Origin: Lactonifactor sp. BIOML-A5
GTDB taxonomy: Bacteria; Bacillota; Clostridia; Lachnospirales; Lachnospiraceae
Assembly: GCF_009677585.1 (NCBI RefSeq)
Contig: NZ_WKYV01000002.1
Location: 124,001 to 188,000, forward strand
DNA: 64,000 nucleotides
Direction of reading: 5' to 3'
Of this stretch, positions 48,752 through 64,000 are shown piece by piece (the first letter of the stretch is position 1; every line of letters begins with the position of its first letter). Below the pieces are notes generated by a model. It was given only the letters and a program-made list of their open reading frames with translations. It did no database searches and was not told the origin of the DNA. Made by a program: the position numbers and the translations under genes.

Positions 48752-48840
48752 GTTTTCGTTCTCCTCCGCAAATGAAAATAGTCTGTATCTTATATACAGA
48801 CTATACCATGCCAATATCTCAAACCTGTTTCCGGAATGTC

Positions 48841-49794
48841 TCACTTCTGAGATATTTCTTCTTTCAGCAGAAAAAGAGAGAACACACTGCCCTTACCCTC
48901 CCTGGAAGCAAGTTTTATATATCCACTCTGGGCCTTCATCACTTCCCTGGCAAGATACAGCCCGATCCCCAGTCCGGGTTCCCCGCTCACCCCGGGGGAT
49001 CGGTAAAACCTGGAGAAAACGCTGGCCTGTTCCTCTTCCGGGATCCCAATCCCCTGATCTGCCACACGGATACATACAAAAAAGGAATAAGCCTCTGCAG
49101 AGACAACAATCTCACCTCCGCAGGGCGTGTACTTTATGGCATTGTCAACCACATTTGCCGCTGCCTCTATGGTCCATTTCAAATCGAACACAGCGGTTTC
49201 CTCTGTGGGTTCCACGGTTAGCCGAACCCCCTTCTGCTCTGCCTTCGGCATAAACTGCTGCTGTACGGCCCATAACACGGGCTGAATCCTTTGTTTTTGC
49301 ATACATACTTTAATAATCCCCGTCTCCAGGCGGGACAGTTTTACCAAAGATTCCACCAGGAATTCCAATGTTTTAGCCTGCTCCCGGATCGCCTCCGTCC
49401 AGCCCGCCGCCTCCGGGCTCCCGTCCGATTTCTGCCGTGCCAGCCATTCTTCCAGTAATTGTGCGTACAGTACTATATTTGAGATGGGAGTTACCGATTG
49501 ATGGGAAATATCAGAAATCTGCAGCTGGATCTGCTCTTTCTCCCTGGAAAGCTTCTGGTATGCCATCTCATTGTCACAGAGGTACCGCCACATGGTGTTT
49601 TCTATGGCCGATATCCCCGTCTCATCCAAATGTTTATCCTGGAATCTGCCGTCTATGGCATCATCCAGCATCTTCTGTATCCGTCGGATGACTCTTTTCT
49701 CCCGCGCCCTAAAGAATATCACTACAGAAATACAGGCGCCAAACAAAACGAATGCCGCACTTACAGATACAAGTATCAGAACCTCTGCCTTCAT
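48841..49794 (-). CDS. Sensor histidine kinase of the ABC exporter system
   Basis: A 317-residue kinase with only one clear N-terminal helix (LILVSVSAAFVLFGACISVVI), a short basic linker, the H-box ISDISHQSVTPISN and a HATPase domain with NAIKYTP, DQGIGIP and GLGIGLYLAREV. Having no large external loop, it may sense in the membrane or through the exporter. It lies between its regulator and the exporter genes. Confidence 0.9.
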   Translation of the reverse strand: MKAEVLILVSVSAAFVLFGACISVVIFFRAREKRVIRRIQKMLDDAIDGRFQDKHLDETGISAIENTMWRYLCDNEMAYQKLSREKEQIQLQISDISHQSVTPISNIVLYAQLLEEWLARQKSDGSPEAAGWTEAIREQAKTLEFLVESLVKLSRLETGIIKVCMQKQRIQPVLWAVQQQFMPKAEQKGVRLTVEPTEETAVFDLKWTIEAAANVVDNAIKYTPCGGEIVVSAEAYSFFVCIRVADQGIGIPEEEQASVFSRFYRSPGVSGEPGLGIGLYLAREVMKAQSGYIKLASREGKGSVFSLFLLKEEISQK

Positions 49795-49819
49795 TTTTGC
49801 TTCCTCTGCTTTCTGTACT

Positions 49820-50491
49820 TTATTGTTTTGCCCAGATATACCCTATGCCGTACACGGTTTTGATACATTCCGGTGCGCTGGGGGAATCCCCCAGCTTATT
49901 GCGCAGGCGGTTGACCGCAACCGTAAGGGCATGTTCATCCACAAACTCGGTTTCCCCCTGCCAGACGCTGTCAATCAGCCGGCTCCGGCTCACATTTTTT
50001 CCCTTATGCTCCACCAGACACCGGAGCAGCCGCTGTTCTGTTTTGCTCAGGTCGATCCCGCGGCTGCCCTTCATAAATTCCATTTTCTCAAAGTCAAAGC
50101 AGTACTCCCCGCATTTAAATACAGCACCCGTGTCTTTTCCTTCCCGCAGCTGCACTCCCACCCTGGCACGCAGGACCATGAGGCTGAAGGGTTTTGTTAT
50201 GTAATCATTTGCCCCGGATTCCAGTCCTGTCACGATATCCATTTCCATATTATTTGCTGTAAGCAATATAATAGGCGTCCTGTCAAAACGGCGGATCTCC
50301 GCCATTAAATCAATCCCGCTGCCGTCCGGCAGATTCACATCCAGAAGGATCAAGTCGGGACGCTGTTCCTTCCAAATCTCCCTTGCCTGCTGCAGGGTAA
50401 AGGCCTGCACGCAGCAATATTCACCCCGCAATGCAATATTTATCCCTTTATTAAGATTTTCATCATCTTCCACAATCAGAACCTGTTTCAT
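49820..50491 (-). CDS. OmpR-family response regulator
   Basis: A 223-residue regulator. The receiver has phosphoacceptor Asp in LILLDVNLPDGSG and the YITKPF lysine. The winged-helix output domain ends with VAVNRLRNKLGDS. It is the first gene of the kinase/exporter group. Confidence 0.94.
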   Translation of the reverse strand: MKQVLIVEDDENLNKGINIALRGEYCCVQAFTLQQAREIWKEQRPDLILLDVNLPDGSGIDLMAEIRRFDRTPIILLTANNMEMDIVTGLESGANDYITKPFSLMVLRARVGVQLREGKDTGAVFKCGEYCFDFEKMEFMKGSRGIDLSKTEQRLLRCLVEHKGKNVSRSRLIDSVWQGETEFVDEHALTVAVNRLRNKLGDSPSAPECIKTVYGIGYIWAKQ

Positions 50492-50662
50492 ATAACGCCT
50501 CTCACCTCAGCCTCACTTTTTTAACACATATTACTATCCGTATACATATACCCTATCATAAAAGAAGCTATTCTGCAAAACCATCCTTTTCCATTTATCT
50601 ATTCTCTGCTGTTATGTTTCCTTATTCCGCCGTCCGGGAAGAGCCCATGAACCAGAAATAGT

Positions 50663-50691
50663 GCCTTATGTATTCTTTCTATACATAAGGC
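50663..50691 (-). terminator. Hairpin after the MBL-fold gene
   Basis: GCCTTATGTAT and ATACATAAGGC pair perfectly with a seven-base loop, about 30 bp after the stop. It is followed by only a weak T stretch (ACTATTTCTGG) on the minus strand. It would end the long cluster that runs in from 64000. The rest of the 231-bp gap is AT-rich without a gene. Confidence 0.55.
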
Positions 50692-50722
50692 GCCGCAAAA
50701 ATTTTCAAGAGACATTCTGACT

Positions 50723-51493
50723 CTAATCAACAACAAGATGCAAAGGATACCTCTCTTTTGCCTCCAGGCAGTATACAGGATACGGAAGCTCCTCTCCCAT
50801 CTTCCGGCAGCTCTCCACAGTGCTTTTTATCCAGCCCTCCATATCCTCACCGGGAGAGGGAAAATGCACCAGAAATATCTGATCCGGCCGGCAAAACTGA
50901 AGCAGGCACTTTCTCGCCCCGGGCAGCCCCAGGGCGGGAAATGGGGCAATCAGAACACTCAGTTTCCCGCAGTACTCCCGCAAATGGCCGTACAGCCTGT
51001 GATCGGGCTTTGCATCCCCCGAAACAAACAGTTCCTGCCCCTGATACTGAAGCAGTACGCTGTAATGGCGTACGTCCCGGTAGACGTTGCCCATATGTTC
51101 TGTGGACAGCAGATATAGAGTCAGTGCACCGTATCTGCCCATAAAGTCCTGGTCAGACATTCTTATTCTTTCCTTTCTCAGAAAGCGGGAGGAACTAACG
51201 CCGGCTTCCGCCAGTATGGAAAGGATATCATCCCCCGCCAAAACCAAGGCAGAGCTGTGGGTTTTCAGATAAGCAGAAACCTTTTGGGGATGGAAATGGT
51301 CCCTATGGCTATGGGTAACCACAAGAAGTCCTATCTCAGGACAGCCGGCATCACAGAGAAGCTTTTGTTCCAGTGTCTCCGGCAGTGGCTGATAGGGCTT
51401 GATCTCCCGACCGGTAAATACATCAATTCCAACCCACTGCCCTCCAAGTTTTAATATAACTCCTGCATTTCCAACGTGAAATAAATAATCCAT
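50723..51493 (-). CDS. Metallo-beta-lactamase-fold hydrolase
   Basis: A 256-residue MBL-fold protein. The metal motif is THSHRDHFHP and the second-shell Asp is in VSGDAKPDHR; HVGNAGVILKLGGQWVGIDV starts the fold. It resembles the UlaG-like branch. AGAGAGGTCG fixes the start at 51493. It is the last gene of the cluster and may hydrolyse a lactone or phosphodiester, but this cannot be decided. Confidence 0.82.
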   Translation of the reverse strand: MDYLFHVGNAGVILKLGGQWVGIDVFTGREIKPYQPLPETLEQKLLCDAGCPEIGLLVVTHSHRDHFHPQKVSAYLKTHSSALVLAGDDILSILAEAGVSSSRFLRKERIRMSDQDFMGRYGALTLYLLSTEHMGNVYRDVRHYSVLLQYQGQELFVSGDAKPDHRLYGHLREYCGKLSVLIAPFPALGLPGARKCLLQFCRPDQIFLVHFPSPGEDMEGWIKSTVESCRKMGEELPYPVYCLEAKERYPLHLVVD

Positions 51494-51534
51494 TATCGAC
51501 CTCTCTTTTGCCTTCCCCATCCGCAGTTACCTTT

Positions 51535-52527
51535 TTAGTTCTCTGCAGATGAAAGCCATGACACCACTTCCCTGATCCGTTCCCTCTGCTGCCCTGAACT
51601 GCCGGCGCAGAGGATATCTTCCTCCGTCACATCGCCCATATCAAGCCTTTTCCCTGTCGCCAAACGCTCAAACGCCTGAGGCAGACCGGTATCCAGGCAG
51701 TCGGAAAACATCTTAATCTCCTGAATGCGAAGGCCGGATCCCTTCATCCACAGATCCGCTCCCCCCCACGCAAAACGTCTGGTGCATCTTATCCCGCACT
51801 CCGGTGACTTTCCGTATCTCCATTCCCAGGCGGCGTACCATTCCTTTGTGCGGTTGATTTCTGATAACGGAAATTCCTGATCCTTTAATTTTTGAGCGCT
51901 CCCATATTCTTTGCAGAAGCTTTCTATTAATGTGCCTTTCAATCCCTCAACGGTAAGCCCCGGGAGGATATCTCTCAGGTTGCATACCCTGGAGCGCACA
52001 GACGAAACCCCTTTTGCCCTGAGCTTTTGAGGGGAGGGGGTCAGATAACGCTCCATGTTCTGCAAGTTCACATTCACCATTAAAGTACCGTGATGTACTC
52101 TGCAGCCACCGGTATTGGAAAATGCATTTCCCGAGAATTTGCATCCATTTTCCGCCAGCAAATCATTTCTTCCCGAAAATTCAGTGCACAGGCCGTAGGT
52201 TTTTATGGCGTCCGTCACCACCTTCATCTGCCGTTCCAAATCATAGACCTCTGGATCTGCCAAAAATGTAAAACACAGATTCCCCAGATCCTGGTATACG
52301 GCGCCTCCTCCTGTTGTTCTTCTGGCCAGAAACCCTCCTTCTTCCTCCAGCAGCTTTGCCCTGCACTCCAGAAGTGCATTCTGGTTCTTGCCGATTACTA
52401 CTGTTTTGTCATTCTGCCAAAGGTAGAGGATCACATCATTTTTCTGTATTCTGGTGCCCAGATACGTTTCCACGGCCAGATTGTACCAAGGATTACAGGA
52501 TTCTGTCTGATAATAGTAATGTCCCAC
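51535..52527 (-). CDS. lplA: Lipoate-protein ligase
   Basis: A 330-residue LplA-type ligase with the lipoyl-AMP binding motif RRTTGGGAVYQD and VHHGTLMVN. It attaches lipoate to E2 lysines. I prefer the GTG at 52527, with GGGAG at ideal spacing; an ATG at 52560 would add 11 residues. It belongs to the cluster that encodes an E2 subunit (62750-63928), so it is probably dedicated to that complex, as in some acetoin dehydrogenase operons. Confidence 0.92.
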   Translation of the reverse strand: MGHYYYQTESCNPWYNLAVETYLGTRIQKNDVILYLWQNDKTVVIGKNQNALLECRAKLLEEEGGFLARRTTGGGAVYQDLGNLCFTFLADPEVYDLERQMKVVTDAIKTYGLCTEFSGRNDLLAENGCKFSGNAFSNTGGCRVHHGTLMVNVNLQNMERYLTPSPQKLRAKGVSSVRSRVCNLRDILPGLTVEGLKGTLIESFCKEYGSAQKLKDQEFPLSEINRTKEWYAAWEWRYGKSPECGIRCTRRFAWGGADLWMKGSGLRIQEIKMFSDCLDTGLPQAFERLATGKRLDMGDVTEEDILCAGSSGQQRERIREVVSWLSSAEN

Positions 52528-52575
52528 ACGCTCACTCCCTTCTGCAGCCGGACGGGCCATGAGAACCCCATGCCT

Positions 52576-53865
52576 TTAATAAACTTCATCCTGGAGTTTT
52601 CTCAGTTCATAGATGTAAGAGTTCTCATCCATAGCAAGCATGTCATAGGTGATCACCTCACCCTTCTTTATATCTTTTTTTGCCACTGTGTTCTTGTTGA
52701 TCAGCCCGATGGGTACTGCATTCATCCTCTTGGCTGTATCGTATTCTTCAATCATACCATACACGGTGTATCCCCCGATGTAATCCAGAGGCTCTCCGGC
52801 CTTGAGATCCCGTTTTGCCAGGGTGATGACCTCACACACCGGTTTCCCCAGAGGCGCAATGGTAGCCATCTTGTCGATAGACGCCATAGCCACTGAAAGC
52901 GGCGTCTCAAGACTGCATAGATGGAAGGGACGAAACAATGTGTAATTGGGGCCGTCTCCCATTCTTAAATACCGCATTTCCCCGTTTACCTCGCTGTTCC
53001 CGTGGGCTATAATGGCAAACACGCCTGGTGCAACGCCATTTACATATTCCACCACCCCGTAGCGGTCCAGGATCCCGCCCTCTTCTTTTGACAAGAAGGT
53101 GCCGGCAAGGCCGTCTACGTCTGTGGATGGACCATGGGCGCCCCGGATATCGCAGGTCATACCTGTAGAGTTCGCCATGGCCGTCATCTCCACCATTGTC
53201 TTTGTTCCGTCTTTAAAGGAACAGAGCATCTTAGGGGCAAGCCCCAGGCTCTTTGCCTCCTTTGCAACGGTATCCGGCGTTGACTCCCTGTTTATCTTAT
53301 GATTCTGTCCTTTTCCGATTACACGCACCTGGAAGCCCATTGCCTTTGCAAAATCATAATACTCTTTTACGGCGCCGGGCTCATCTCCTGCGGATCCAGT
53401 ATACACGACACCCCTTTTGTCCGCAAGGATTTTCAGGTAGGATCCAATAGTAACGTCTGTCTCCACATTCAGCATTACGATATTTTTTCCATTCTCTATA
53501 GCCTCCACCGCCAGCCGCGCACCCACCTCCGGGACGCCGGTGGCATCTACCACCGTTGAAATCCCTTCCGCCTGTGCAACCAGCTTAAAGTCCTCCGTCA
53601 CAACAAACTTGCCGTTTTTTAATGCCTCGTTTGCTTCCTTCAGATCATTGGTAACAATAAACTGTTCTCTGGTTAATCCTGCATTTTCATAGGCTGATAC
53701 GGCATTCTCTAACCGGATATCCGAAATAATCGCAGGCCTCATGCCGGGCATGCCTGCCATCTGGTTGATCATTCCCCTTCCCTGGTTTCCTGCTCCCACC
53801 ACGCCTGCATATACGGGATTCCCCTCTTCCTCCAGCTTTAATAACTTGTAATTCAGTCCAAACAT
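52576..53865 (-). CDS. NAD(P)-dependent oxidoreductase with C-terminal SAF domain
   Basis: A 429-residue protein. The N-terminal Rossmann fold has VVGAGNQGRGM and resembles homoserine dehydrogenase; the C-terminal SAF module starts near GLINKNTVAKKDIKKGEVIT. The family occurs in carboxylate and sugar-acid catabolic clusters, but its reaction is not settled. It lies between the ATPase genes and the lipoate ligase, so it probably acts on the imported compound. Confidence 0.82.
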   Translation of the reverse strand: MFGLNYKLLKLEEEGNPVYAGVVGAGNQGRGMINQMAGMPGMRPAIISDIRLENAVSAYENAGLTREQFIVTNDLKEANEALKNGKFVVTEDFKLVAQAEGISTVVDATGVPEVGARLAVEAIENGKNIVMLNVETDVTIGSYLKILADKRGVVYTGSAGDEPGAVKEYYDFAKAMGFQVRVIGKGQNHKINRESTPDTVAKEAKSLGLAPKMLCSFKDGTKTMVEMTAMANSTGMTCDIRGAHGPSTDVDGLAGTFLSKEEGGILDRYGVVEYVNGVAPGVFAIIAHGNSEVNGEMRYLRMGDGPNYTLFRPFHLCSLETPLSVAMASIDKMATIAPLGKPVCEVITLAKRDLKAGEPLDYIGGYTVYGMIEEYDTAKRMNAVPIGLINKNTVAKKDIKKGEVITYDMLAMDENSYIYELRKLQDEVY

Positions 53866-53892
53866 ATTACTTTTTCTCCTCTCTCTATCTGA

Positions 53893-54642
53893 TTACCACC
53901 ATTTAATCTGATCCGTTATGTGGGTACGCAGCTGAATAAATGCAGGATCCGTAAAGTCCCGGGGTCTCGGAAGATCCACTTCTATCTCCTCCTTAATCGT
54001 CGCCGGTTTATTGGTCAGAATCAGCACTTTTTCTGCCAGATACACAGCCTCTTCTATGTTGTGGGTAATAAATACTACTGTGCTTCCCGTTTCTTTCCAG
54101 AGCCGGATCACCTCATCCTCCAGATAATACCGGAGTTTTATATCCATCTGCCCGTAGGGCTCGTCCATAAGCAGCAAGTCCGGATTCATGACAAATGCCC
54201 GGCCTATGATAATGCGCTGCTCTGAACTCACCGACAGCTGGGAAGGGTATGCGTTTCTGAATTTGGTCAGTCCCAGCAGCTCCAGCATATTATCTACCCT
54301 CCGCTTAATTTCTTCCGGGGGCAGTTTCTTTATTTTCAGGCCAAAGGCCAGATTCTCTTCTACCGTCAGCCACTGAAATGCCGACGGCTCCTGAAACACA
54401 AAGGCCAGATTATGTTTTTTCGGATCCGCCGGTTCTCCGTCTATCAGGAGTTCTCCTGCCGTGGGCTCTATCAGCTTTGTCAGCAGATTCAGAAATGTTG
54501 TTTTGCCGCACCCGGTTGGCCCTACGACACAGACAAATTCCCCTTTTCTAATGTTAAAAGAAATATCATTGAGCACCAGGAGATCATCAAATTTTTTTGT
54601 CAGGTTTTTTACTTCCACCTTAACTTCACGGTTATTGCCCAT
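53893..54642 (-). CDS. NitT/TauT-type ABC ATPase with degenerate signature
   Basis: A 249-residue ATPase. Walker A is GPTGCGKTT, the H-loop histidine is in FITHN, but the signature is LSVSSEQR instead of LSGGQ and the D-loop is GQMD. With a partner carrying a normal signature, this one should have a sound Walker A and H-loop but offer a poor signature. The start at 54642 follows AGAGGTG. It lies 26 bp after the other ATPase. Confidence 0.92.
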   Translation of the reverse strand: MGNNREVKVEVKNLTKKFDDLLVLNDISFNIRKGEFVCVVGPTGCGKTTFLNLLTKLIEPTAGELLIDGEPADPKKHNLAFVFQEPSAFQWLTVEENLAFGLKIKKLPPEEIKRRVDNMLELLGLTKFRNAYPSQLSVSSEQRIIIGRAFVMNPDLLLMDEPYGQMDIKLRYYLEDEVIRLWKETGSTVVFITHNIEEAVYLAEKVLILTNKPATIKEEIEVDLPRPRDFTDPAFIQLRTHITDQIKWW

Positions 54643-54668
54643 CTCTAACACCTCTCGTCCTTCCATAG

Positions 54669-55430
54669 TTAAAGAGCCAGATCCGTATTCGCCGCAATCA
54701 CCTGCCTGATATGCAGAAAATTGGGGTCTACATTATTTCTGGGCCGGGGTAAATCTATCTCATATATTTCTTTTACGTGGGCAGGACACTCGCTGAATAA
54801 GACGATGCGGTCTCCCAGATACGCCGCTTCCTCAATATTATTTGTCACAAAGATAATGGTACGCTTTTCCTGTTCCCAGATTCTTATAAGTTCGTCTTCC
54901 ATGGCATACCTGGTCTGGGCGTCCAACGCCCCAAAAGGTTCGTCCATCAGCAGGATCTCCGGGTTATTGGTGTAGGCGCGGGCGATTCCCACCCGCTGCT
55001 TCATACCTCCGGAGAGCTGGCTGGGGTAAGAATTCTCGAATCCCGACAGACCTACCAGATCAATATATTTCTTCGCCCGCTCCCGCCTGGTCTTTTTGTC
55101 CTCCCCGGCCATTTTAGGACCCAGCTCCACATTCTGCATCACTGTCTTCCAGGGCATGAGTCCTGTTTTCTGAAACACCATCCCCACGGCGCCGTGGGAA
55201 CCCCGGACTTCTTTTTCATCCAGATAAAAACTGCCCGACGAGGGAGTCTCCATCCCCGCTATCATATTCAGAAGTACCGTTTTGCCGCAGTGGCCGGGCC
55301 CCAGAAGCACTAGGAATTCCCTGTCCTGAACCTCCAGGGTCACCTCATGTACCGCCTCGAATTCTCCCTCCGGGGTATGGTATATCTTTGTCAGTTTGTC
55401 TAACCTTAACCTTATTTTTTTCTCAGCCAT
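54669..55430 (-). CDS. NitT/TauT-type ABC ATPase with H-loop Asn
   Basis: A 253-residue ATPase with a normal signature ([14 protein letters not shown]) and Walker B ([11 protein letters not shown]), but Walker A is the unusual GPGHCGKTV and the H-loop reads FVTNNIEEA, so His is replaced by Asn. It overlaps the permease end by 19 bp. It is likely the asymmetric partner of the ATPase at 53893-54642. Confidence 0.92.
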
Positions 55431-56191
55431 GGACAAATCATCCTTTCCACAAATGAAATAAATACTGCAAGCAGGGCACCTACAATGCCGATAGCGATCA
55501 TCGCCACAAGAACCAGGGCAGTATCACCGCTGTCCATGCCCCTGGTAATCAGAAAGCCTACGCCTGATTTTGCCCCCAGCATCTCCGCTGCCAGTACAAC
55601 CATCCATCCGGTACTAATAGAAGTCTTAATTCCCGCCAGAATGGTGGGCAGCGCCGAGGGCACTGCGATTTCAAACAAAAGCTGCCTGGAATTGGCGTGA
55701 AATACTGTTCCCACATCCAGGTAGAGCTGTTCCACGCGCTCCATTCCTGACTGTGTATTTACAATGACCGGAACGATGGAACCAATTACTACAATTAATA
55801 TTTTGGGTGTCTCGCCAATCCCAAACCATATAGTTATAAGAGGGATCCACGCCAGAGGGGGAATGGGACGCAGCATATTAAAGATGGAGCCAAAAACTGA
55901 CTTGCCGGTCCTGCTCCAGCCGATTAGAATCCCGAATAAAATACCCGCAGACCAGGAAATTAATAAGGCGGTCATAACTCTGCGCAGGCTGGCCAGGATA
56001 TGCCCGAAAAAGCTGAGTCTCATAATGGGCTTGTCAAAGGTATCCGCAAACCTGGACCAGGTCTCTGCCGGTGTGGGGATCAGATCCGGCCGATTCCCGG
56101 AAACGCCCATCCACAGGGCCAAAAGGCATGCAATGGAGACAGCCGGCAGAACAGCATACAGAATTTCTAAAAACAGATTTCTTTGCTTCAT
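55412..56191 (-). CDS. NitT/TauT-type ABC permease (second)
   Basis: A 259-residue permease with about six helices. The EAA-like loop is [20 protein letters not shown], and [21 protein letters not shown] is the conserved family stretch. It overlaps the first permease by 4 bp and forms a likely heterodimer with it. Confidence 0.9.
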
Positions 56192-56997
56192 CGTGTTCTA
56201 CCTCCCCATTTCACAATTTTCTTCTCCGCGAGTTCCAGCAGCGCTGTCATAATTGCCCCGATGATGCCAATCACAAGCATGCCCAGAACGATAATGTCCG
56301 GTCTGGCAAAGGCGCGCCCCATAAGGATCATGTAACCCAGTCCCGCACTGGAGGCAAGCATCTCGGCCGCCACCAGTGTAGACCATGAATTCCCCAGGGC
56401 TACCCGGATCCCGGCAAAGGTAATGGGAAGTGAGGAAGGAATTCCTACCTTTATAAAAATAGTAAAGTTGGAGGCTCCAAATGTTTTCGCCACATTGATG
56501 AGCACAGGACTGGTCTGCTTAATTCCCGTATAGGAATTAATCACACAGGGAATAAATGCTGAGAAAAATATAATAAACGCCTGTGCCTTCAGTCCGATCC
56601 CCAGCCACAGGATCGTTAAGGGGATCCAGGATATAGGGGGAATGGGACGTATGATTTCAAACAGAGGGGTGACAAAGCGATCCACCCACCTATACCACCC
56701 CATGAGCCAGCCCAGGGGAATACCCAGAATCAATGCGGTAAAAAGCCCCAAAAGAGACACCCGCAGACTGGAAAACACATTGACCTGCAGCGTATTGCCG
56801 TCCGGCGCTGTCTCCGCAATTTTTACAAAAAACAGCTTTATAATGTCTGTGGGCGCCGCCAGATACTTTGAATTGATAATGCCGCTTACTACCAGCAGCT
56901 GCCAGATGACAAAAAAACCGGCAATTCCCAGCACTGACAGCAAAGCGTACTTTGTACTGCCCACCGCGAATTTATTTTTCTTTGTTTTTTTATTCAT
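56188..56997 (-). CDS. NitT/TauT-type ABC permease (first)
   Basis: A 269-residue permease. Conserved stretches are IRPIPPISWIPLTILWLGIG and TFGASNFTIFIKVGIPSSLP. The start at 56997 follows AGAGGAA at good spacing; an ATG two codons earlier is too close to it. It follows the binding-protein gene by 24 bp. Confidence 0.9.
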   Translation of the reverse strand: MNKKTKKNKFAVGSTKYALLSVLGIAGFFVIWQLLVVSGIINSKYLAAPTDIIKLFFVKIAETAPDGNTLQVNVFSSLRVSLLGLFTALILGIPLGWLMGWYRWVDRFVTPLFEIIRPIPPISWIPLTILWLGIGLKAQAFIIFFSAFIPCVINSYTGIKQTSPVLINVAKTFGASNFTIFIKVGIPSSLPITFAGIRVALGNSWSTLVAAEMLASSAGLGYMILMGRAFARPDIIVLGMLVIGIIGAIMTALLELAEKKIVKWGGRTR

Positions 56998-57021
56998 TCT
57001 CATTTCCTCTATGATTATGGG

Positions 57022-58197
57022 TTAATAATTCCATCTTCCGGCCTCTGTCATTTCCTTGTGAACCTCTTGGGCAATGCTTGGATCAAACATATTGTTATCC
57101 AGCACGAATTCCCGGTCTTTCTCTGTATACTTTCCGGTGTCAATAAAAAAGTCCAGGGTAACCAGCAAATCGGACTCCGCTTTGGTAACTGCCCGCTTTG
57201 TGTAAGGCGCATACTCTACGGTAGTGTCCAGCTGCTCCATTACATCCTCCAGCGTCGGGCTGTTTCTTCTTTCGCAGATATATTTTGAGGTTTCCTCGTC
57301 ACATGCTATCCCTTCAATCTCACAGGTTTCCAGATAGTACGCTTCTGCCTCTTCCATATTGTCAGCAATCCACTCGCTGGCTCTGTAATACACTTCATAA
57401 AACTTTTTAACAGCATCCCTTTTATTTTCCAGAGCATCTGCCGTTGCGCAGATACCGCATTCGATTAAATCACCTGTAATATCCAGACCGCTGACCTTTT
57501 TATATCCTGCCTTTTCTGCTTCCAGGGCCACAGAAAGGGACAGGCACACACCATCCCCCTCACCTGCCTTAAAGGCGGTGAAACCTGTGCTGTTATCCAT
57601 ATTTACCATTGTGATATCCTTATCTGTCAGACCCAGAAGGGACAGGGTGGAATTCAGCACAATATTTGTGGTGGTGCCCACAGGCAGAAGCCATTCCGTT
57701 CCCGCCCATTCTTCTGCAGTGCCGTATAACTCCTCTGCCCCCTCTACCTTCCCTTTTCCGGCTTGATAGATAGGAGAGTCTTCCCGGGTATACAGATTCA
57801 GAACCGCGTCATATTCACAGTTGCCGATGCAGTAAACATCATATCCCAGCATGCCCACCAAAACTCCGGGGCTGCCTGTGGTAGCGATATCCCAGCTCTC
57901 GTTGGCCTCCATCATAGCAGGGCCGCTGGTAAAAGAGGAATACTCCAGGTCAATATTCAGTTCATCAAACCAGCCCTTTTCATCTGCAATATAAATTGGG
58001 AGAGAGTGCATAACCCCGGAGAAGTATGCAATATCCAGCGTCTGCCTTTCCTCCAGGGGCTGTATATCCCAGGTTGTTTTGGAGTCCTTCCCTGCCGTTG
58101 TTTTCGTCTCCTCCTTGGAGGAAGACCCCTCACCGCATCCTGCCATACCTCCCATCGCCAATGACATTACCAATGTAAACGCCAGCACCTTTTTCAT
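57022..58197 (-). CDS. NMT1/TauA-type substrate-binding lipoprotein
   Basis: A 391-residue lipoprotein (signal MKKVLAFTLVMSLAMG, lipobox GMAGC). The domain has IAYFSGVMHSLPIYIADEKG and IATTGSPGVLVGM, as in NitT/TauT binding proteins for nitrate, sulfonates, aromatics or thiamine precursors. The acid/amide-rich body suits a charged small ligand, which cannot be named. Its genes follow TauE/SafE. Confidence 0.9.
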   Translation of the reverse strand: MKKVLAFTLVMSLAMGGMAGCGEGSSSKEETKTTAGKDSKTTWDIQPLEERQTLDIAYFSGVMHSLPIYIADEKGWFDELNIDLEYSSFTSGPAMMEANESWDIATTGSPGVLVGMLGYDVYCIGNCEYDAVLNLYTREDSPIYQAGKGKVEGAEELYGTAEEWAGTEWLLPVGTTTNIVLNSTLSLLGLTDKDITMVNMDNSTGFTAFKAGEGDGVCLSLSVALEAEKAGYKKVSGLDITGDLIECGICATADALENKRDAVKKFYEVYYRASEWIADNMEEAEAYYLETCEIEGIACDEETSKYICERRNSPTLEDVMEQLDTTVEYAPYTKRAVTKAESDLLVTLDFFIDTGKYTEKDREFVLDNNMFDPSIAQEVHKEMTEAGRWNY

Positions 58198-58235
58198 AGT
58201 TTTTTCTCCTTTCTATGTTTGCTTTTTTCAGTAGT

Positions 58236-59030
58236 TTACATATATTGCACAAAATTATAGACACAAATTAGTATAATTATCAGCATGACTGCAATAAAAA
58301 GCTTATTCACTATATGTGAATTAATTCTGCTGTTCAGCCTTCTCCCCGCTGCTCCCCCTAAAATTCCAAATATTACCATCCCCAGCAGAAGCGCCGGACG
58401 GACAGCCGGCAGATTCCCTTTCACTGCTGTGAAGATCACGCTGCTGGCCTGGGATATGAGTATAATATATAAGGAATTCTGAACAGCCACTTTCGTTTCC
58501 ATGGAGAAGCAAAAGTAAAGAAGGACCAAATTGATGGGGCCCCCTCCTATCCCTAAAAAGGAGGACATAATCCCAAGTATAATTCCTATACATGCACAGA
58601 TACTCTTGCCGGTGATCTGCTTTGTGTGAATCTTATGTTTCTGCAGTGTATAACACAGTGTCCCTATGGTAAGGACAAACAGGGCCGCGGACTGAACAGC
58701 GCCGATCCGACCCGAATCAGAAAACCAGCGGTTCAGTACTTCGAAGAGGCATTTTCCCAGACAGCCTCCTGCGGCTGCCCCTATCCCCAGAAACGTGCTG
58801 ACTTTATAGTCAATACGGGAGTCTCCCTTCACATGGACGCTCACTACGGAATAGCATGTCATGGACAGTACGGTACACCCTGATAAAAAGCTGACCGTGC
58901 CCGCGTCCATGAGCTGAAAAGAATCCAGCACGGGTTTTATAATTACTCCGCCTCCGATGCCGCAGACAGATCCAAGGACGGAAGCCAGAAAACTGATTAG
59001 ATAAATTATGAGCAGCGATGAATCATACAT
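58236..59030 (-). CDS. TauE/SafE-family membrane permease
   Basis: A 264-residue protein with about eight helices and two internal repeats, marked GSVCGIGGGVIIKPVLD and MSSFLGIGGGPINLVLLY. The family moves sulfite, sulfonates or other organic anions, usually outward. The start overlaps the LarA-like gene end by 8 bp. Next to a NitT/TauT importer it hints at sulfonate metabolism, but the family is broad. Confidence 0.85.
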   Translation of the reverse strand: MYDSSLLIIYLISFLASVLGSVCGIGGGVIIKPVLDSFQLMDAGTVSFLSGCTVLSMTCYSVVSVHVKGDSRIDYKVSTFLGIGAAAGGCLGKCLFEVLNRWFSDSGRIGAVQSAALFVLTIGTLCYTLQKHKIHTKQITGKSICACIGIILGIMSSFLGIGGGPINLVLLYFCFSMETKVAVQNSLYIILISQASSVIFTAVKGNLPAVRPALLLGMVIFGILGGAAGRRLNSRINSHIVNKLFIAVMLIIILICVYNFVQYM

Positions 59031-60477
59031 TTTGCAGATCATCATCTTTCATACACAGATGGACAGCTCCCAGCTTAAACGTCTTGGGAAGTGCCAGTAT
59101 CTTCGGATCTTCCCCCACATACTTCTTTTTCGCATCTGCCAGAGCTTCCTCAAAGGTTGCTCTTGTCTTAAGTCCCATGCCTCTGGCAATTCCCGGTTCC
59201 TGGGCTCCTACAATATAGATTGCCGAGGTATTTTCCTCTGCGATATGCCCGCAGCTCATCATGCTGAATCCATGGAAGGGATGGAACGCATTGGCAAAAC
59301 GGTACTTCCGGATATACTCTTCCTTTGTGGCAAAGTACTCTCCATAGCGGTTCATGTCCGGCAGAATATTCATATAGTCATGCTGAAACATCTCATATAA
59401 TTCCCTTAGATACGGCCACCTTTCATCGTGGAAGTAGCCGTTGCAGACAGAGGAACAGATAATTACACACCGGTCGCTCATAATACGTTTATGCCGGATT
59501 ACCTGGGCAGACAATGCCTGCATCATCTGAATGGGATTGGTGCCCATACCGTTTCCGTAGTGGAAGTCCTGGGGCATACCGAAGACCAGAACATCATATT
59601 TCTGCTCGGCAAAGGGTACATAGGTTCTGATATTTGCCGTCTTCCAGCTTTGCCTCTGCATCTCGGCAGCGTAGCCGGAATTAATCTCTATCTGCCTGGA
59701 ATAGGTGTCCAATACCGCGTCACAGCAGAAAAATGGATGTCCCATCTTTTCCTCCATATGCCTGCCAATCTCGTCAAATTTCGTCCGCATCAGGGAATGT
59801 CCGGAGACCGGCGTAAAGTCCGGGCGGTGCATTACCTGGGGTACATGGTGGGACGCAATACTTTTCCAGTGGGTAATGCCTGTGGAGCAGTGCTTATACC
59901 CCCCTGAATATCCCCCGTAGGGATTTCCCTGGGTATGACCGATAAGGATAGGGATATCACACTCGTATACATACCGGTTCATAATAACCGGATCCCCCCG
60001 ACTGGTAGTCCCCAGATCCACCAGGTGTTCATAGTCCTCCGAATCGTGACTGGTAATCTGATTGGTATGATAGAATTCATCAAACAGCTCTTTCCCAAGG
60101 ATCTGTTTCATCTCCGGCACCGTAGTTCTGGGGTGCAGTCCGTTGGAAAACAGAAGAAGAATGTCTTTCTTTTCAACCCCTGCAGCATATAGCTCTTCCA
60201 GCATTACCTTAATGGCAACTTTTCTGTGGGAAGCGGCCTGGCAGCCGCCTTTCACAATATCGGGTATTACAAAAACCACCTTGCTCCCTTTATGGGCCAG
60301 CTTCCCAAGAGGCTCCATTCCAATGGGGCTGCGCACAGACTCCCTTGTGCGTTCATAAATTTCTGCTTCCGGAATGTGGGGGGGATCAGGAACGGTCTCC
60401 CCTGGAATAAATACATCTGCTGTATCCGGCAGGTCGGCTGTCATCGTGCCATGCCCATACTCAAACTCAACGTTCAT
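59023..60477 (-). CDS. LarA-family (nickel-pincer) racemase/epimerase-like protein with His-to-Asn change
   Basis: A 484-residue LarA-like (DUF2088) enzyme. In LarA, two catalytic histidines flank a lysine that carries the nickel-pincer cofactor. Here His115 in NGLHPRT, Lys195 in GGYKHC and His211 fit H108, K184 and H200, but the residue 10 before the lysine (H174 in LarA) is Asn185 in GNPYGG. The usual substrates are 2-hydroxyacids. It overlaps the TIM-like gene by 4 bp. No larB, larC or larE cofactor genes are in the window. Confidence 0.87.
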   Translation of the reverse strand: MNVEFEYGHGTMTADLPDTADVFIPGETVPDPPHIPEAEIYERTRESVRSPIGMEPLGKLAHKGSKVVFVIPDIVKGGCQAASHRKVAIKVMLEELYAAGVEKKDILLLFSNGLHPRTTVPEMKQILGKELFDEFYHTNQITSHDSEDYEHLVDLGTTSRGDPVIMNRYVYECDIPILIGHTQGNPYGGYSGGYKHCSTGITHWKSIASHHVPQVMHRPDFTPVSGHSLMRTKFDEIGRHMEEKMGHPFFCCDAVLDTYSRQIEINSGYAAEMQRQSWKTANIRTYVPFAEQKYDVLVFGMPQDFHYGNGMGTNPIQMMQALSAQVIRHKRIMSDRCVIICSSVCNGYFHDERWPYLRELYEMFQHDYMNILPDMNRYGEYFATKEEYIRKYRFANAFHPFHGFSMMSCGHIAEENTSAIYIVGAQEPGIARGMGLKTRATFEEALADAKKKYVGEDPKILALPKTFKLGAVHLCMKDDDLQNV

Positions 60478-61328
60478 TCGCCCTCTCCTCCCTGTTCTCC
60501 TAAATATAAGTGTACAATTTCCAGGTATTCCTCCGGATAGAACCCAATATTTTCTGAAAAATGGGTCAGGGCAATCAATCCCCCGTCAATCTCCTCAATA
60601 GATGCCAGCATCTTTGCGTTGTCTGCCTTTAGGCCTCCGCCGTATACCACATCCATGCCGCCCGTTTTTTCTTTGATGAATCGTGCAATCTCCGTTATGT
60701 ATTCTTTACCGGCCGGAGTCTTCCCGGGACCGATAGACCATATGGGTTCATATCCGATGACAACTCCCTCTTTGTCCACGCCCTTCAACCCTGTCTCCAG
60801 CTGTTCTCCCAGCACCTCTTTCCACCGTTCCTGCTCCTTTGCCGATTCACCGATGCAGTACAAAACCTTTAAGCCCGCTGCCTGGGCACACAAAATTTCT
60901 TCGTTCAGCAGACCGTTTACCGCTATGGGATCCCATATCCCGGCCTTTTTCAGCACCCCCTTTTTGTCATTTCGTTCCTCACAGTGTCCGATTAAAGTGG
61001 CGCCGCATCCCATAGCCTTCACTACTGATGCAGTACGGTTAGTAGTAAATGCACCAAAATTCCCTCCTACGGCGGCATCCTCTCTGTAGACGCCCTGGCT
61101 TCCTATCATTACCGGGCTGTCCTTTTCCAGAGCCTCCACTGCATTCATAAGATGTGCCTCCGGAAAGAAATGGATAAACTCTACCTCCTCCTTTCTGTAC
61201 TTTTTAAGTCCTTCCTGGGTGTTTTTTATAATATAAGAAGCCCATTCCGGCAGCTCTGCAAGACTGTTAACACCCCCGTATTCCTTAGTAATGTCGAATC
61301 TTTTCAGGTTCAAAAAAATATGCTTCAT
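60474..61328 (-). CDS. Triosephosphate isomerase-family protein
   Basis: A 284-residue TIM-barrel. Catalytic residues are conserved: Asn7 and Lys9 (LNLKRF), His115 (IGHCEERN) and Glu194 (GYEPIWSIGPGKTP). It is 30-35 residues longer than glycolytic TIM. The position in a catabolic operon suggests a paralogue that isomerises a different phosphate, as seen for erythrulose-phosphate isomerases, although a true TIM is possible. Confidence 0.9.
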   Translation of the reverse strand: MKHIFLNLKRFDITKEYGGVNSLAELPEWASYIIKNTQEGLKKYRKEEVEFIHFFPEAHLMNAVEALEKDSPVMIGSQGVYREDAAVGGNFGAFTTNRTASVVKAMGCGATLIGHCEERNDKKGVLKKAGIWDPIAVNGLLNEEILCAQAAGLKVLYCIGESAKEQERWKEVLGEQLETGLKGVDKEGVVIGYEPIWSIGPGKTPAGKEYITEIARFIKEKTGGMDVVYGGGLKADNAKMLASIEEIDGGLIALTHFSENIGFYPEEYLEIVHLYLGEQGGEGE

Positions 61329-61331
61329 GCT

Positions 61332-62735
61332 CTACCCCCTTGTCTTTTTGTTGCCCGTATGTATGGCGCGGTTCTGCGCCGCCAAAGCTGCCTCCCGCAC
61401 ACATTCACTCAGCGTTGGATGGGCATGAATGGTGTCAATAAGCTCATCTGCAGTAGCTTCCAGTTTTATGGCCAGGGCTGCCTCGGCGATCAGCTCCGTT
61501 GCCTGCGCCCCGTAGATATGTACTCCCAGCAGCTCCCCGTATGGCTCCCCCGTCAGTACTTTTACCATCCCGGTGTCCTGCCGGTAAATTAAAGCTCTGC
61601 CGTTGGCTGCCATGGGAAATACTCCGGCCCGGTAAGATATGTCTTTTTCCCGCAGCTGCTCCTCCGTAAATCCCACACCCGCCAGTTCAGGAAAGGAGTA
61701 CACTCCCCCCGGACATATACTTCCGTCAAAGCTGCGGGACCCTCCCATACAGTTTTCAGCCGCGATCATGCCCTGTTCTGACGCCGCGTGGGCAAGCATC
61801 AGCTGTCCGTTGCAGTCTCCCACGGCATAGATATGCTTTGCGCTGGTTCTCATAAAGGAGTCTGTCAGGATCCTTCTTTCAACCCTGACACCTGCTTTCT
61901 CCAGATTCAGCCCTTCCAGGCTGGCCTTTCTTCCTATGCACAAGAGTATCTTTTCCGCTTCCAGGGTTATCTGTGTATTCTCCTGTTCCACACAGCAGGC
62001 GGCCATGTCACCTTTTTTCTCAAACTTGCAGACTTTTGCTCCAGTCATAATGCGCATGCCCCTGTGTTCCATGTCTGCCTTCAGCTTTTCCGACAATGTC
62101 CTGTCCATGTTAGGCAAAATATTCCCTGCCATTTCCACAATTGTAATTTTGGTGCCGAACTCGTGATATGCGGTTGCCAGTTCAACACCGATCACACCGC
62201 CCCCTACTATGAGCATACTGTCGGGTACCTTTTCCAGAGAGAGGGCCGCCGTACTGTCAATGCAGATGTCTCCCCCGGCTCCCGGAATGGGCGGCACCAG
62301 AGGCTCAGCACCTGTTGCAAGAATAAAGAAATCACTGGAAACCCTTTGTTTTTGGCCGTCTGCCATGTTGACGCACACCGTATGGGGATCCAGAAAGCCC
62401 GCCGAACCGTACAATACTCTTATTCTGTTGGATCGCATTAACCCCTCAACCCCCGAGACCAGTCTGTCAATTACACTTTTTCTCCGTTCCTGAACCATTT
62501 CCCAGTCCAGATGCGGCGAGGCCACAACGCCGATTCCGGCGGACGCTCCCGCCTCGTGGTATACATGGGCGCTGTCCAGCAGCGCTTTGGTGGGGATACA
62601 GCCTATATTAAGGCAGGTGCCCCCCATCCGTTTCTTTTCAATCAGGGTTACTTCCGCCCCCAGCTGCGCTGCCCGGATGGCAGCCACATAGCCTCCCGGA
62701 CCTCCTCCTATCACTGTTACTGTTTTCTTATCCAT
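61332..62735 (-). CDS. lpdA: Dihydrolipoyl dehydrogenase (E3)
   Basis: A 467-residue flavoprotein. FAD motif VIGGGPGGYVAAIRAAQLG, redox cysteines 41 and 46 (GGTCLNIGC), NAD motif GGGVIGVELA and C-terminal catalytic His in HAHPTLSE. It reoxidises lipoyl-E2 with NAD. It follows the E2 gene by 14 bp and precedes the TIM-like gene by 3 bp. Confidence 0.95.
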   Translation of the reverse strand: MDKKTVTVIGGGPGGYVAAIRAAQLGAEVTLIEKKRMGGTCLNIGCIPTKALLDSAHVYHEAGASAGIGVVASPHLDWEMVQERRKSVIDRLVSGVEGLMRSNRIRVLYGSAGFLDPHTVCVNMADGQKQRVSSDFFILATGAEPLVPPIPGAGGDICIDSTAALSLEKVPDSMLIVGGGVIGVELATAYHEFGTKITIVEMAGNILPNMDRTLSEKLKADMEHRGMRIMTGAKVCKFEKKGDMAACCVEQENTQITLEAEKILLCIGRKASLEGLNLEKAGVRVERRILTDSFMRTSAKHIYAVGDCNGQLMLAHAASEQGMIAAENCMGGSRSFDGSICPGGVYSFPELAGVGFTEEQLREKDISYRAGVFPMAANGRALIYRQDTGMVKVLTGEPYGELLGVHIYGAQATELIAEAALAIKLEATADELIDTIHAHPTLSECVREAALAAQNRAIHTGNKKTRG

Positions 62736-62749
62736 CTCTTCTCCCTCCG

Positions 62750-63928
62750 CTAGGCCAGCATCATCACCGGATCGTCCAGCAAATCCTTGATCGCCTTCAG
62801 CAATTTTGCCGCAGCTGCGCCGTCAAATACCGTGTGATCAAATGACAGGGAAATCTGCATACAGGTTCTGACACATATTTCATGTTCCACCACTGCCGCT
62901 GTCTCTTTCATACAGCCCACCCCGAGAATCAGGCATTCCGGGGAATTAATAATGGGGTCAAAGGACTCAATTCCAAACATCCCCACGTTGGAAACGGAAA
63001 AGGTTCCCCCGCTCATATCCTCCCCGGATAACCGTCCGTTTCTGGCCTTCTCTGTCAAGGTCCCGAATTCACCTGCCAGTTCAAAGATTCCTTTTTTATC
63101 CGCGTTTTTAAGCACCGGGACAAGGAGTCCGTCAGGGGTATCCACAGCAACACCGATATTAATATCCTTCTTTATGCAGAATCCTCCCTCCTGCGTAATA
63201 CAATTCATGTGGGGATATGCCCCCAAAGCAGCTGCACATGCCTTGACGATAATTTCGTTGTACGACACTCTGGTCTGCTTTTTTAACTTTTCCCGAAAGG
63301 CAATTAAGTTTTCACAGTCAACGGTGGTTACCAGGGTCACCCGCGGTTTGTGATTTGCGCTTTCCAGCATATGTCTCGCAATTGCTTTTCTCCTGGGAGT
63401 AAAAGGCACAAAGACAGATGCGTCCCGGGAAACAGGCGCCTCATACCTGAGAACATCCGCTTTCACAATTCTTTTTCCTTCCTCTTTCGGAGAAAGCTCC
63501 TCTATGGGAATCCCTAAATCTTCCGCCATCTTCTTTGCCAGAGGCGAGATACGCACCTTCCCTCTTTTTCTCTCCTGTCCGGCAGCCTTTCCTCCCGGCT
63601 TCCTCTCAGGGACGTCCGCCGTATCAGGTTCCGGCTTAGGATCTGCACTTGCTTTGTTCTGATCTGCCCTCTCCTGCGTATACTCCTCTCCCTCCTCCAG
63701 CAGGATCGCAATTTTCTCCTGACAGGGGACGGTATCTCCCGGCTGCGCCAGGAGCTTGTACACGATTCCTGCATCCGTGGCAAAGATATCCTGAACAGCC
63801 TTGTCTGTCTCTGCCCGCAGCACAATCTGTTCCTTTTCGACCTTATCCCCGGGTTTTATGAGCCATTCGTCGATCACTCCCTCTTCCATATTCATTCCAA
63901 TTTTAGGCAAAACTAAGTATTTCGGCAT
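62750..63928 (-). CDS. 2-oxoacid dehydrogenase E2 (lipoyl acyltransferase)
   Basis: A 392-residue E2. One lipoyl domain with lipoyl-Lys43 (ETDKAV), a charged Pro/Lys linker, an E3-binding domain (SPLAKKMAEDLGIPIEEL) and the acyltransferase core with catalytic His365 and Asp369 (SFDHTVFDG). GAGGAGGGAGACTCT fixes the start at 63928. It follows a partial E1-beta gene by 13 bp. Single-lipoyl E2 fits pyruvate/acetoin-type complexes; the acyl group is unknown. Confidence 0.94.
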   Translation of the reverse strand: MPKYLVLPKIGMNMEEGVIDEWLIKPGDKVEKEQIVLRAETDKAVQDIFATDAGIVYKLLAQPGDTVPCQEKIAILLEEGEEYTQERADQNKASADPKPEPDTADVPERKPGGKAAGQERKRGKVRISPLAKKMAEDLGIPIEELSPKEEGKRIVKADVLRYEAPVSRDASVFVPFTPRRKAIARHMLESANHKPRVTLVTTVDCENLIAFREKLKKQTRVSYNEIIVKACAAALGAYPHMNCITQEGGFCIKKDINIGVAVDTPDGLLVPVLKNADKKGIFELAGEFGTLTEKARNGRLSGEDMSGGTFSVSNVGMFGIESFDPIINSPECLILGVGCMKETAAVVEHEICVRTCMQISLSFDHTVFDGAAAAKLLKAIKDLLDDPVMMLA

Positions 63929-63941
63929 AGAGTCTCCCTCC

Positions 63942-64000
63942 TCAATCATTGGATAAGCTTTTATGAACCGCACTTATAACATCTGAAACATCCGGCAATA
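63942..64000 (-). CDS. 2-oxoacid dehydrogenase E1-beta (C-terminal end)
   Basis: The last 19 codons of a minus-strand gene that runs in from beyond 64000. The tail reads LPDVSDVISAVHKSLSND, similar to the C-terminus of AcoB/E1-beta subunits. It ends 13 bp before the E2 start, which supports an E1-E2-E3 operon. Confidence 0.6.
   Translation of the reverse strand, partial: LPDVSDVISAVHKSLSND

Follow-up and report, generated by a model that had tools for sequence, protein, structure and literature searches.

Known substrates of LarA enzymes are 2-hydroxy acids (PMC11770544, PMC7583248). The closest described relatives of the LarA considered here are LarA_Bw, from Blautia wexlerae, and LarA_Sp (PDB 9q3j/9q2u). 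According to the report on them (PMC12611868), their structures have been solved, with no substrate or reaction known, and a triosephosphate isomerase (TIM) gene is found among their glycolysis-like neighbours; no lactate racemisation was detected with LarA_Sp, whose ligand had a mass of 316.5 Da. A second reference enzyme is Brucella DXR-II, in which Lys191, Lys193 and Thr229 anchor fosmidomycin (PMC3847144). Here we analyse a 64,000-nucleotide stretch of Lactonifactor sp. BIOML-A5 (contig NZ_WKYV01000002.1, positions 124,001 to 188,000; hereafter the window), in which homologs of LarA, TIM and DXR-II stand within a run of 13 closely packed open reading frames (ORFs) on the minus strand (50723-63973). 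An earlier note on this DNA, made from the sequence alone, knew of no named pathway for this catabolic gene set, and we found none either: among the open-licence papers listed in capped searches, titles and abstract openings pointed neither to a pathway composed of these genes nor to a catabolic role for DXR-II or a sulfo pathway involving LarA and TIM, and PMC12611868 was the one paper noticed on this LarA subfamily.

Our reading, to which we assign a probability of about 0.42, is that these genes belong to a 15-gene operon that imports and degrades a small sugar or polyol bearing an anionic group other than phosphate, X, on its terminal carbon, with a sulfate ester or a sulfonate favoured as X. 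The strongest evidence, and the chief new facts, are the coupling of LarA to a TIM-like gene in 36 of 38 loci and clean phosphate-site replacements across several enzyme families. The scheme, in which the substrate, X, the reaction directions and the LarA chemistry are proposals, would run as follows. A NitT/TauT-type importer would take up the X-bearing compound; the DXR-II relative, an oxidoreductase of the DRL type run catabolically, would oxidise and rearrange a branched polyol-X to a ketol-X; a lipoylated E1-E2-E3 complex, with lipoate attached by LplA, would convert this to glyceraldehyde-3-X and an acyl-CoA (acetyl-CoA if the ketol were 1-deoxyxylulose-like); and the TIM-like enzyme would interconvert glyceraldehyde-3-X and dihydroxyacetone-X. 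The nickel-pincer LarA might then remove a hydride transiently from the triose-X, giving a carbonyl through which X could be lost or shifted, and TauE would export the anion or the end product. A single catalytic histidine could be enough for such a LarA because the hydride would return on the same side; this is the least certain step, and we regard it as doubtful.

The single-histidine LarA and its TIM-like neighbour

The LarA homolog of the window (59023..60477, on the minus strand like all the operon genes below) matches LarA_Bw and LarA_Sp with 859 and 820 bits over nearly the full length and shares with them H115, N185, K195, H211, H306 and Y307; D73 and K76 are also present. The lysine of the nickel-pincer nucleotide (NPN) thioamide (K195), the nickel histidine (H211) and the catalytic histidine (H115) are found in the window and in all 38 LarAs of the neighbourhood set described below. 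The second catalytic histidine (His174 in L. plantarum LarA) is Asn185 in the window and asparagine in 38/38, including Lactonifactor longoviformis. Judging from these residues, the window LarA is a member of the known single-histidine subfamily (LarA-Asn), which has no assigned function, and not a classical hydroxyacid racemase. The 'hydroxyacid epimerase' of the earlier note is therefore not supported, the second histidine being replaced as in LarA_Bw and LarA_Sp, the latter without detected lactate racemisation. The nickel cofactor is plausible, since L. longoviformis (genome G001) has LarC (472 bits, in a search that covered LarC) and larB/C/E genes lie inside 3/38 LarA loci (L168, L172, L173).

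A LarA search of 397 genomes of the L. longoviformis family (E<=1e-20) matched 38 genomes, 30 with a LarA of at least 71% identity (L. longoviformis included) and 8 with distant LarAs only. A phylum sample of 398 genomes held 7 with LarA besides G001, while two more, G1397 and G1412, came from class samples of 22 and 29 genomes. In the phyla to which G791 and G792 belong, LarA-Asn was found in 0/398 and 0/198 genomes, respectively (E<=1e-70), a result that is uninformative, as the search had no positive control. The neighbourhood set comprised 38 wide LarA loci (including L001 of L. longoviformis, excluding G047) examined with preset score thresholds; neighbour counts are lower bounds, the stretches spanning 8-21 kb.

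A TIM-like gene was present in 36 of these 38 loci, on the same strand in all 36 and adjacent to LarA in 33. The other neighbours were pyrophosphate (PPi)-PFK-like (30 loci), FBA-like (24), NagB-like (18), NitT permease (17), NagA-like (16), TauE (15), LacI (14), aldose-epimerase-like (8), PGI-like (6), ManA-like (3) and DapA-like (3) genes, with transketolase and AraD-like genes in L122 (by eye), a transaldolase/FSA-like gene in L132, and RpiB and Rpe in L125 together with nucleoside-hydrolase-like and BMP-type ATP-binding cassette (ABC) genes, the latter two by eye. Different as these gene sets are, all of them could lead to a triose carrying one and the same terminal group. L150 and L153, which have no TIM-like gene, carry a 3-hydroxyisobutyrate-dehydrogenase-family gene next to LarA. 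DRL was found in one LarA locus, as were E2 and E3, in Lactonifactor only; among 80 DRL loci, L001 alone contained a TIM-like gene or matched LarA strongly, the LarA match in L030 reaching 60 bits. The co-occurrence search that the earlier note had suggested was thus positive for LarA with the TIM-like gene (36/38) and negative for LarA with DRL (1/38). In these loci LarA recurs with the TIM-like gene, and Lactonifactor alone combines it with DRL and E1-E3. The window operon is thus a mosaic, in which a core of LarA, TIM and transport genes that recurs elsewhere is joined to a front end made of DRL and the lipoyl complex. It is a catabolic operon of new composition, and the recurrent sugar pathway to which its LarA-TIM core belongs is probably phosphate-free.

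Three further observations concern these loci. DUF4838 proteins are encoded in L123 (626 aa) and L132 (620 aa), with a related ORF in L174 (3/38 LarA-Asn loci), and might release X-sugars intracellularly. In L174 (8649-10300) the LarA-Asn gene is broken into two reading frames, with TIM-, PFK-, FBA-, NagA- and NagB-like genes in the same locus. A second L. longoviformis LarA homolog (L175, G001:C29), 32% identical, adjoins a split transketolase-like gene and a PGK-like gene (both by eye).

Altered phosphate sites and the nature of X

Residues of the partner enzymes were compared by alignment to the E. coli enzymes (TIM numbering is that of E. coli with Met). In the TIM-like protein (60474..61328 in the window), the NLKRF motif with the catalytic lysine is found in 36/36 sequences, as are H95, E97 and E167, whereas the phosphate-site residues are replaced in all 36 (S212G, G233A, G234L); the phosphate loops of the window protein read YGGGLK and ALTHF, and the match to the curated TIM model is 62 bits for a cut-off of 131. 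The isomerase announced in the earlier note is thus borne out in its TIM fold and catalytic Lys, His and Glu, but not in its phosphate-binding residues. The NagB-like protein shows T41V and lacks G43/T44 in 18/18, and has K208H and a residue other than Arg at R172 in the 17/17 that align there; D72, H143 and E148 are retained, and the curated model is matched with 89 bits (cut-off 237). Likewise, the NagA-like protein carries R227H in 16/16 while retaining H195, H216, H251 and D273, and the PGI-like protein carries S207A, T209N and T215P in 6/6 with catalytic E355, H386 and K514 kept. PFK-like proteins retain R244 and R253 in 31/31, and the FBA-like consensus (n=17) retains the Arg of KINVDTDxR; for this reason X looks anionic. 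Differences from E. coli PfkA at R163 and H250 were set aside as evidence of phosphate loss, as they may be a trait of the PPi-type family. Taken together, these residues make an anionic terminal group other than phosphate quite likely for the Lachnospiraceae core, and the consistent changes in the phosphate grip of its partners provide a testable clue to the substrate class of LarA-Asn.

Several points weigh against this reading. The comparison presupposes that the E. coli residues in question contact phosphate or act in catalysis. Phosphate-site neighbours are kept in the PGI-like (K208 and T212, 6/6) and NagA-like proteins (H251, 16/16). The presumed catalytic D141 is Asn in the 17/17 aligned NagB-like proteins, so that their reaction may differ; ALTRF is found in 33/36 TIM-like proteins but ALTHF in Lactonifactor, so that X or the geometry may differ there. 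In addition, the 2025 structure paper speculatively modelled a phosphorylated ligand, no substrate or activity being known for LarA-Asn (PMC12611868). Finally, PFK-like (423 bits for a cut-off of 273), NagA-like (303 for 226) and RpiB (176 for 139) proteins pass curated phospho-enzyme cut-offs. This last finding would be expected if the intermediates were ordinary phosphorylated ones, made by a kinase encoded outside the operon, and the altered loops reflected another sugar skeleton; that the DXR-II family handles phosphates and that a glucitol-type phosphotransferase system (PTS) component occurs in 55/80 DRL loci point the same way. We hold this alternative to be unlikely, given phosphate-site replacements in five families (TIM-, NagB-, NagA- and PGI-like, and DRL) and the conservation of DRL K193 in 82/83 readable DRL-locus ORFs (the exception being L. 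longoviformis) and in 110 of the best 120 homologs.

If X is anionic but not phosphate, it is most likely a sulfate ester or a sulfonate, and possibly a carboxylate. The operon encodes a NitT/TauT-type substrate-binding lipoprotein (57022..58197; PF09084/PF13379), two ABC permeases (56188..57003 and 55412..56191; PF00528 both), two ABC ATPases (54669..55436, with a TTG start in the ORF list and a true start that may be later, and 53893..54666; PF00005 both) and a membrane transporter of the TauE/SafE family (58236..59045; PF01925), presumably an exporter. The sole NCBIfam match of the binding protein is SsuA_fam (51 bits, well under the cut-off of 163.5), and the best PDB fold matches of its AlphaFold model (pLDDT 75.6, middling) are SsuA and TauA, a likeness at fold level that gives no ligand. 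Both matches support an importer of the sulfonate type, in agreement with the tauA/B/C-type importer of the earlier note. A sulfatase gene is found in 2/38 LarA loci (L169, L174), L174 having also a GH20 gene, a fucosidase gene and, by eye, a 1036-aa GH2-like gene. Bacterial sulfoglycosidases release N-acetylglucosamine-6-sulfate (GlcNAc-6-sulfate; PMC11659886), a compound that would fit the altered phosphate sites of the NagA- and NagB-like proteins.

A sulfur-containing X also meets objections. Sulfatase genes occur in just 2/38 loci, and an adjoining sulfatase could simply strip sulfate; TauE (15/38) and the NitT permease (17/38) are both in under half of the LarA loci; other loci carry sugar ABC genes of the CUT1 type (in L151-L154 and L166, by eye) or tripartite tricarboxylate transporters (TTT; L149, L153, L166). 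Nor are we aware of any natural gut substrate resembling 2-C-methylerythritol that is sulfated or sulfonated. Were X a carboxylate, the loci would serve uronate, aldarate or amino-uronate catabolism, with tartronate semialdehyde as the triose, the TIM-like protein as tartronate-semialdehyde/hydroxypyruvate isomerase and LarA acting on an alpha-hydroxy acid, in keeping with the 2-hydroxy acids known as LarA substrates (PMC11770544, PMC7583248). The 3-hydroxyisobutyrate-dehydrogenase-family gene that replaces the TIM-like gene in L150 and L153 would suit this scheme, the L153 protein matching tartronate semialdehyde reductase best (197 bits, cut-off 341; sulfolactaldehyde (SLA) reductase 172, cut-off 348), as would the DapA-like genes of L149, L153 and L166 and the carboxylate-typical IlvD/EDD-like and TTT genes of L153/L166 (by eye). 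A carboxylate would, however, lie nearer the reacting carbons than phosphate does, by the geometry we infer, yet the PFK- and FBA-like proteins retain the distal-phosphate Arg; the window has an SsuA/TauA-type importer and TauE; and no lactate racemisation was detected with LarA_Sp, as noted above (PMC12611868). For these reasons we also consider the carboxylate scheme unlikely.

A sulfate or sulfonate as X would mean that gut Firmicutes use host or dietary sugars carrying such a group in a way so far unrecognised, and that a nickel enzyme performs new chemistry. In its most specific form, which we think rather unlikely as it stands, gut Lachnospiraceae and relatives would have a second glycolysis alongside the usual one and independent of sulfatases: a sulfate ester (e.g. 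mucin GlcNAc-6-sulfate) would replace phosphate from import to triose, LarA-Asn would complete the route by abstracting a hydride transiently and so expelling a sulfur oxyanion, and TauE would export it; to this core Lactonifactor would have added an oxidoisomerase of the DXR-II type and a lipoyl complex that forms acyl-CoA. As a separate observation, an arylsulfotransferase-family (ASST) domain fused to thioredoxin is encoded elsewhere in the window (18075-19886), and an ASST-family gene also lies near LarA-TIM in L149.

The DRL oxidoreductase, the lipoyl complex and the operon

The DRL protein (52576..53865; DRL_cat and SAF domains, 213 bits for DRL_cat) aligns over its full length with Brucella DXR-II (3upy, 344 bits) and is 97% identical to that of L. 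longoviformis. The SAF oxidoreductase of the earlier note is therefore confirmed in its domains and can be specified as a relative of DXR-II, in a family that includes reductoisomerases. G121, K191, T229, H250 and R320 are retained, whereas K193, N195 and Y322 are changed to Gln, His and Phe, respectively, which leaves the Lys191/Lys193 fosmidomycin anchor half kept. Hence the motif GKGQNH in the window and in L. longoviformis, where the other 82 readable DRL-locus ORFs and Brucella have GKGKNN (two partial rows are gapped). Among the best 120 of 3896 DRL homologs, the ten top-scoring (61-99% identical) have GKGQNH and the remaining 110 GKGKNN. Some DRL is found in 16/395 relatives, with more than 54% identity to that of the window in L. 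longoviformis only. DRL loci (n=80) typically encode a SorC-type regulator (56), SrlE (55), SrlA/GutM (54) and SrlB (51), and E1alpha in nine; by contrast, the operon (window and L. longoviformis head) contains no kinase gene and no PTS gene. The DRL relatives examined mostly neighbour PTS or kinase genes; the window operon has neither, and its anchor is changed. The comparison thus supports a non-phosphorylated substrate, without naming it. A phosphorylated route through 1-deoxy-D-xylulose 5-phosphate (DXP) and 2-C-methyl-D-erythritol 4-phosphate (MEP) was accordingly dropped for the window, in view of K193Q, the lack of kinase and PTS genes in the operon and the TIM-like loops.

Such a route is a candidate elsewhere. 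Six loci (L002, L004, L006, L008, L017, L027) combine a GKGKNN DXR-II with a glucitol-type PTS and E1alpha-E1beta-E2, and with E3 except in L008, where the stretch ends; they might turn 2-C-methyl-D-erythritol into acetyl-CoA and glyceraldehyde-3-phosphate, with MEP and DXP as intermediates. In other DRL loci (L015, L018, L026, L074 and L078 among them), a class II aldolase-like gene (16/80), a further TIM paralog (19/80) and a YjbQ-like gene (16/80) suggest that the DRL product may also be processed by another route. Five DRLs with GKGKNN (L196-L200) lie beside FGGY-type kinase and MDR-like genes, some also with AraD-like or sugar ABC genes (all by eye), probably in another branched-polyol pathway. 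That most DXR-II-like genes of the 80 loci are near sugar-alcohol PTS genes raises the question whether these genes chiefly serve isoprenoid synthesis there.

The earlier note listed an E1-E2-E3 set with a lipoate ligase. E2, a dihydrolipoyl acyltransferase with one lipoyl domain (62750..63925, from a probable ATG at 63925, against GTG 63973 in the ORF list), and E3, a dihydrolipoyl dehydrogenase (61332..62735; TIGR01350, 520 bits for a cut-off of 409), are in the window, as is LplA (51535..52560; TIGR00545, 317 for 280), which bears out the ligase; of E1, the window holds only the last 18 codons and stop of E1beta (63942..64000), the rest lying beyond it. The L. longoviformis E1alpha is under both pyruvate dehydrogenase (PDH) cut-offs (325 vs 394 and 214 vs 411 bits), and its E1beta passes the broad PDH-type subfamily model only (423 vs 321 bits). 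These NCBIfam matches do not settle whether the complex would cleave a 2-oxoacid or an acyloin. The idea of acyloin cleavage arises because DRL recurs with E1-E3 and because DXR-II run in reverse would give a 1-deoxyketose, which is an acyloin; we consider its odds about even. It is weakened by the L. longoviformis E1alpha being only 37-44% identical to the nine DRL-locus E1alphas and outside their clade; in the E1alpha tree (3/11 inner branches starred) the window-type E1alpha is on a long branch, and the tree names no substrate. Cleavage of a 2-oxoacid belongs to the scheme of the earlier note, in which LarA epimerises a hydroxyacid or sulfonate, the SAF oxidoreductase makes a 2-oxoacid and E1-E2-E3 converts this to acyl-CoA. 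The PDH-type E1beta match, the E3 and LplA scores and the sulfonate-type importer all agree with it. We nevertheless find it quite unlikely, as the second histidine is absent from LarA in 38/38, LarA accompanies the TIM-like gene rather than DRL or E1-E3, and DRL relatives include reductoisomerases (DXR-II; PMC3847144).

The operon ends with a protein resembling metallo-beta-lactamase (MBL)-fold hydrolases (50723..51520; PF12706, 21 bits, under the cut-off of 27), for which a search of about 5.8 billion proteins gave, at the sensitivity used, four homologs, including one with 28% identity. In transcription order from E2 to the MBL gene, the spacings are +14, +3, -4, -23, +38, +18, -4, -25, +2, +27, +15 and +14 bp. 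The downstream neighbour starts 231 bp beyond the last operon gene, and this gap contains a terminator-like hairpin with an 11-pair stem (50663..50691, minus strand); because 50300-64000 holds 15 such sites and shuffled sequences average 13.7, this hairpin taken by itself is only a weak sign of the operon end. A promoter scan was uninformative (12 found, 16.2 expected). In L. longoviformis DSM 17459, locus L001 aligns with window positions 50702-63864 at 92.4% DNA identity over 13.2 kb with the same E2-to-MBL gene order, and L089 shows a divergent LacI-family gene, probably the operon regulator, followed by E1alpha and E1beta (full E1beta, L089:1503-2483). Since these two genes head the operon there, we count 15 genes, E1alpha-E1beta-E2-E3-TIM-LarA-TauE-binding protein-permease-permease-ATPase-ATPase-DRL-LplA-MBL, as one probable operon; geometry and L. 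longoviformis order agree with the single operon of 13 same-strand genes with short gaps or overlaps supposed in the earlier note. Alternatively, Lactonifactor may have merged by chance a LarA-TIM-ABC-TauE import/export module with a separate DRL-acyloin dehydrogenase module. The restriction of DRL and E1-E3 with LarA to Lactonifactor would be in keeping with this, but the genes of the two modules interleave, with E1-E3 at the head and DRL and LplA towards the other end, at tight spacing in the window and in the same order in L. longoviformis; this, and the confinement of K193Q to this DRL and its nearest relatives among the best 120 homologs, as if adapted to a new substrate, make a chance merger very unlikely.

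Adjoining the operon, an FtsX-type permease, an ABC ATPase, a histidine kinase and a response regulator (45501-50491) resemble peptide-antibiotic sensing modules; elsewhere in the window, an MttB-family methyltransferase-like ORF lies at 38767-40173 (both by eye).

Comparison with known systems

LarA_Bw and LarA_Sp belong to the same subfamily as the window LarA, with the same active-site set and a TIM neighbour. Their glycolytic neighbours led the authors to guess a phosphorylated carbohydrate (PMC12611868), whereas here the phosphate sites of the neighbours are altered, and in the window DRL and E1-E3 take the place of PFK/FBA. Triosephosphate isomerase shares with the TIM-like protein its fold, the NLK motif, His95 and Glu167 (36/36), and differs from it at Ser212 and Gly233-Gly234, replaced in 36/36. 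Brucella DXR-II (3upl/3upy) is homologous to the window DRL over the full length, with G121, K191, T229, H250 and R320 in common; the latter differs by K193Q, N195H and Y322F and by an operon that includes a lipoyl complex. With acetoin and pyruvate dehydrogenase complexes, the operon shares E1alpha, E1beta, E2, E3 and LplA (E1 read in L. longoviformis only), its E1alpha being set apart by scores below the PDH cut-offs and a long branch.

The sulfoglycolytic pathways of sulfoquinovose (sulfo-Embden-Meyerhof-Parnas (EMP), -Entner-Doudoroff (ED), -transketolase (TK) and -transaldolase (TAL)) would share with our scheme a common logic, the re-tooling of phospho-sugar enzymes for a sulfo group. 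A 2026 review of sulfoglycolysis (PMC12890257) makes no mention of triose, racemase, LarA, TauE or nickel, and a Faecalicatena paper (PMC11659671) none of triose, racemase or TauE. Signs of sulfoglycolysis in the window are limited to the SsuA/TauA-type importer and TauE, no search having been aimed at sulfoquinovose enzymes. Around LarA, EMP-, ED-, TK- and transaldolase-like gene sets resemble the sulfoglycolysis variants (partly by eye); unlike these, the NagA and NagB genes around LarA point to an N-acetylhexosamine-X.

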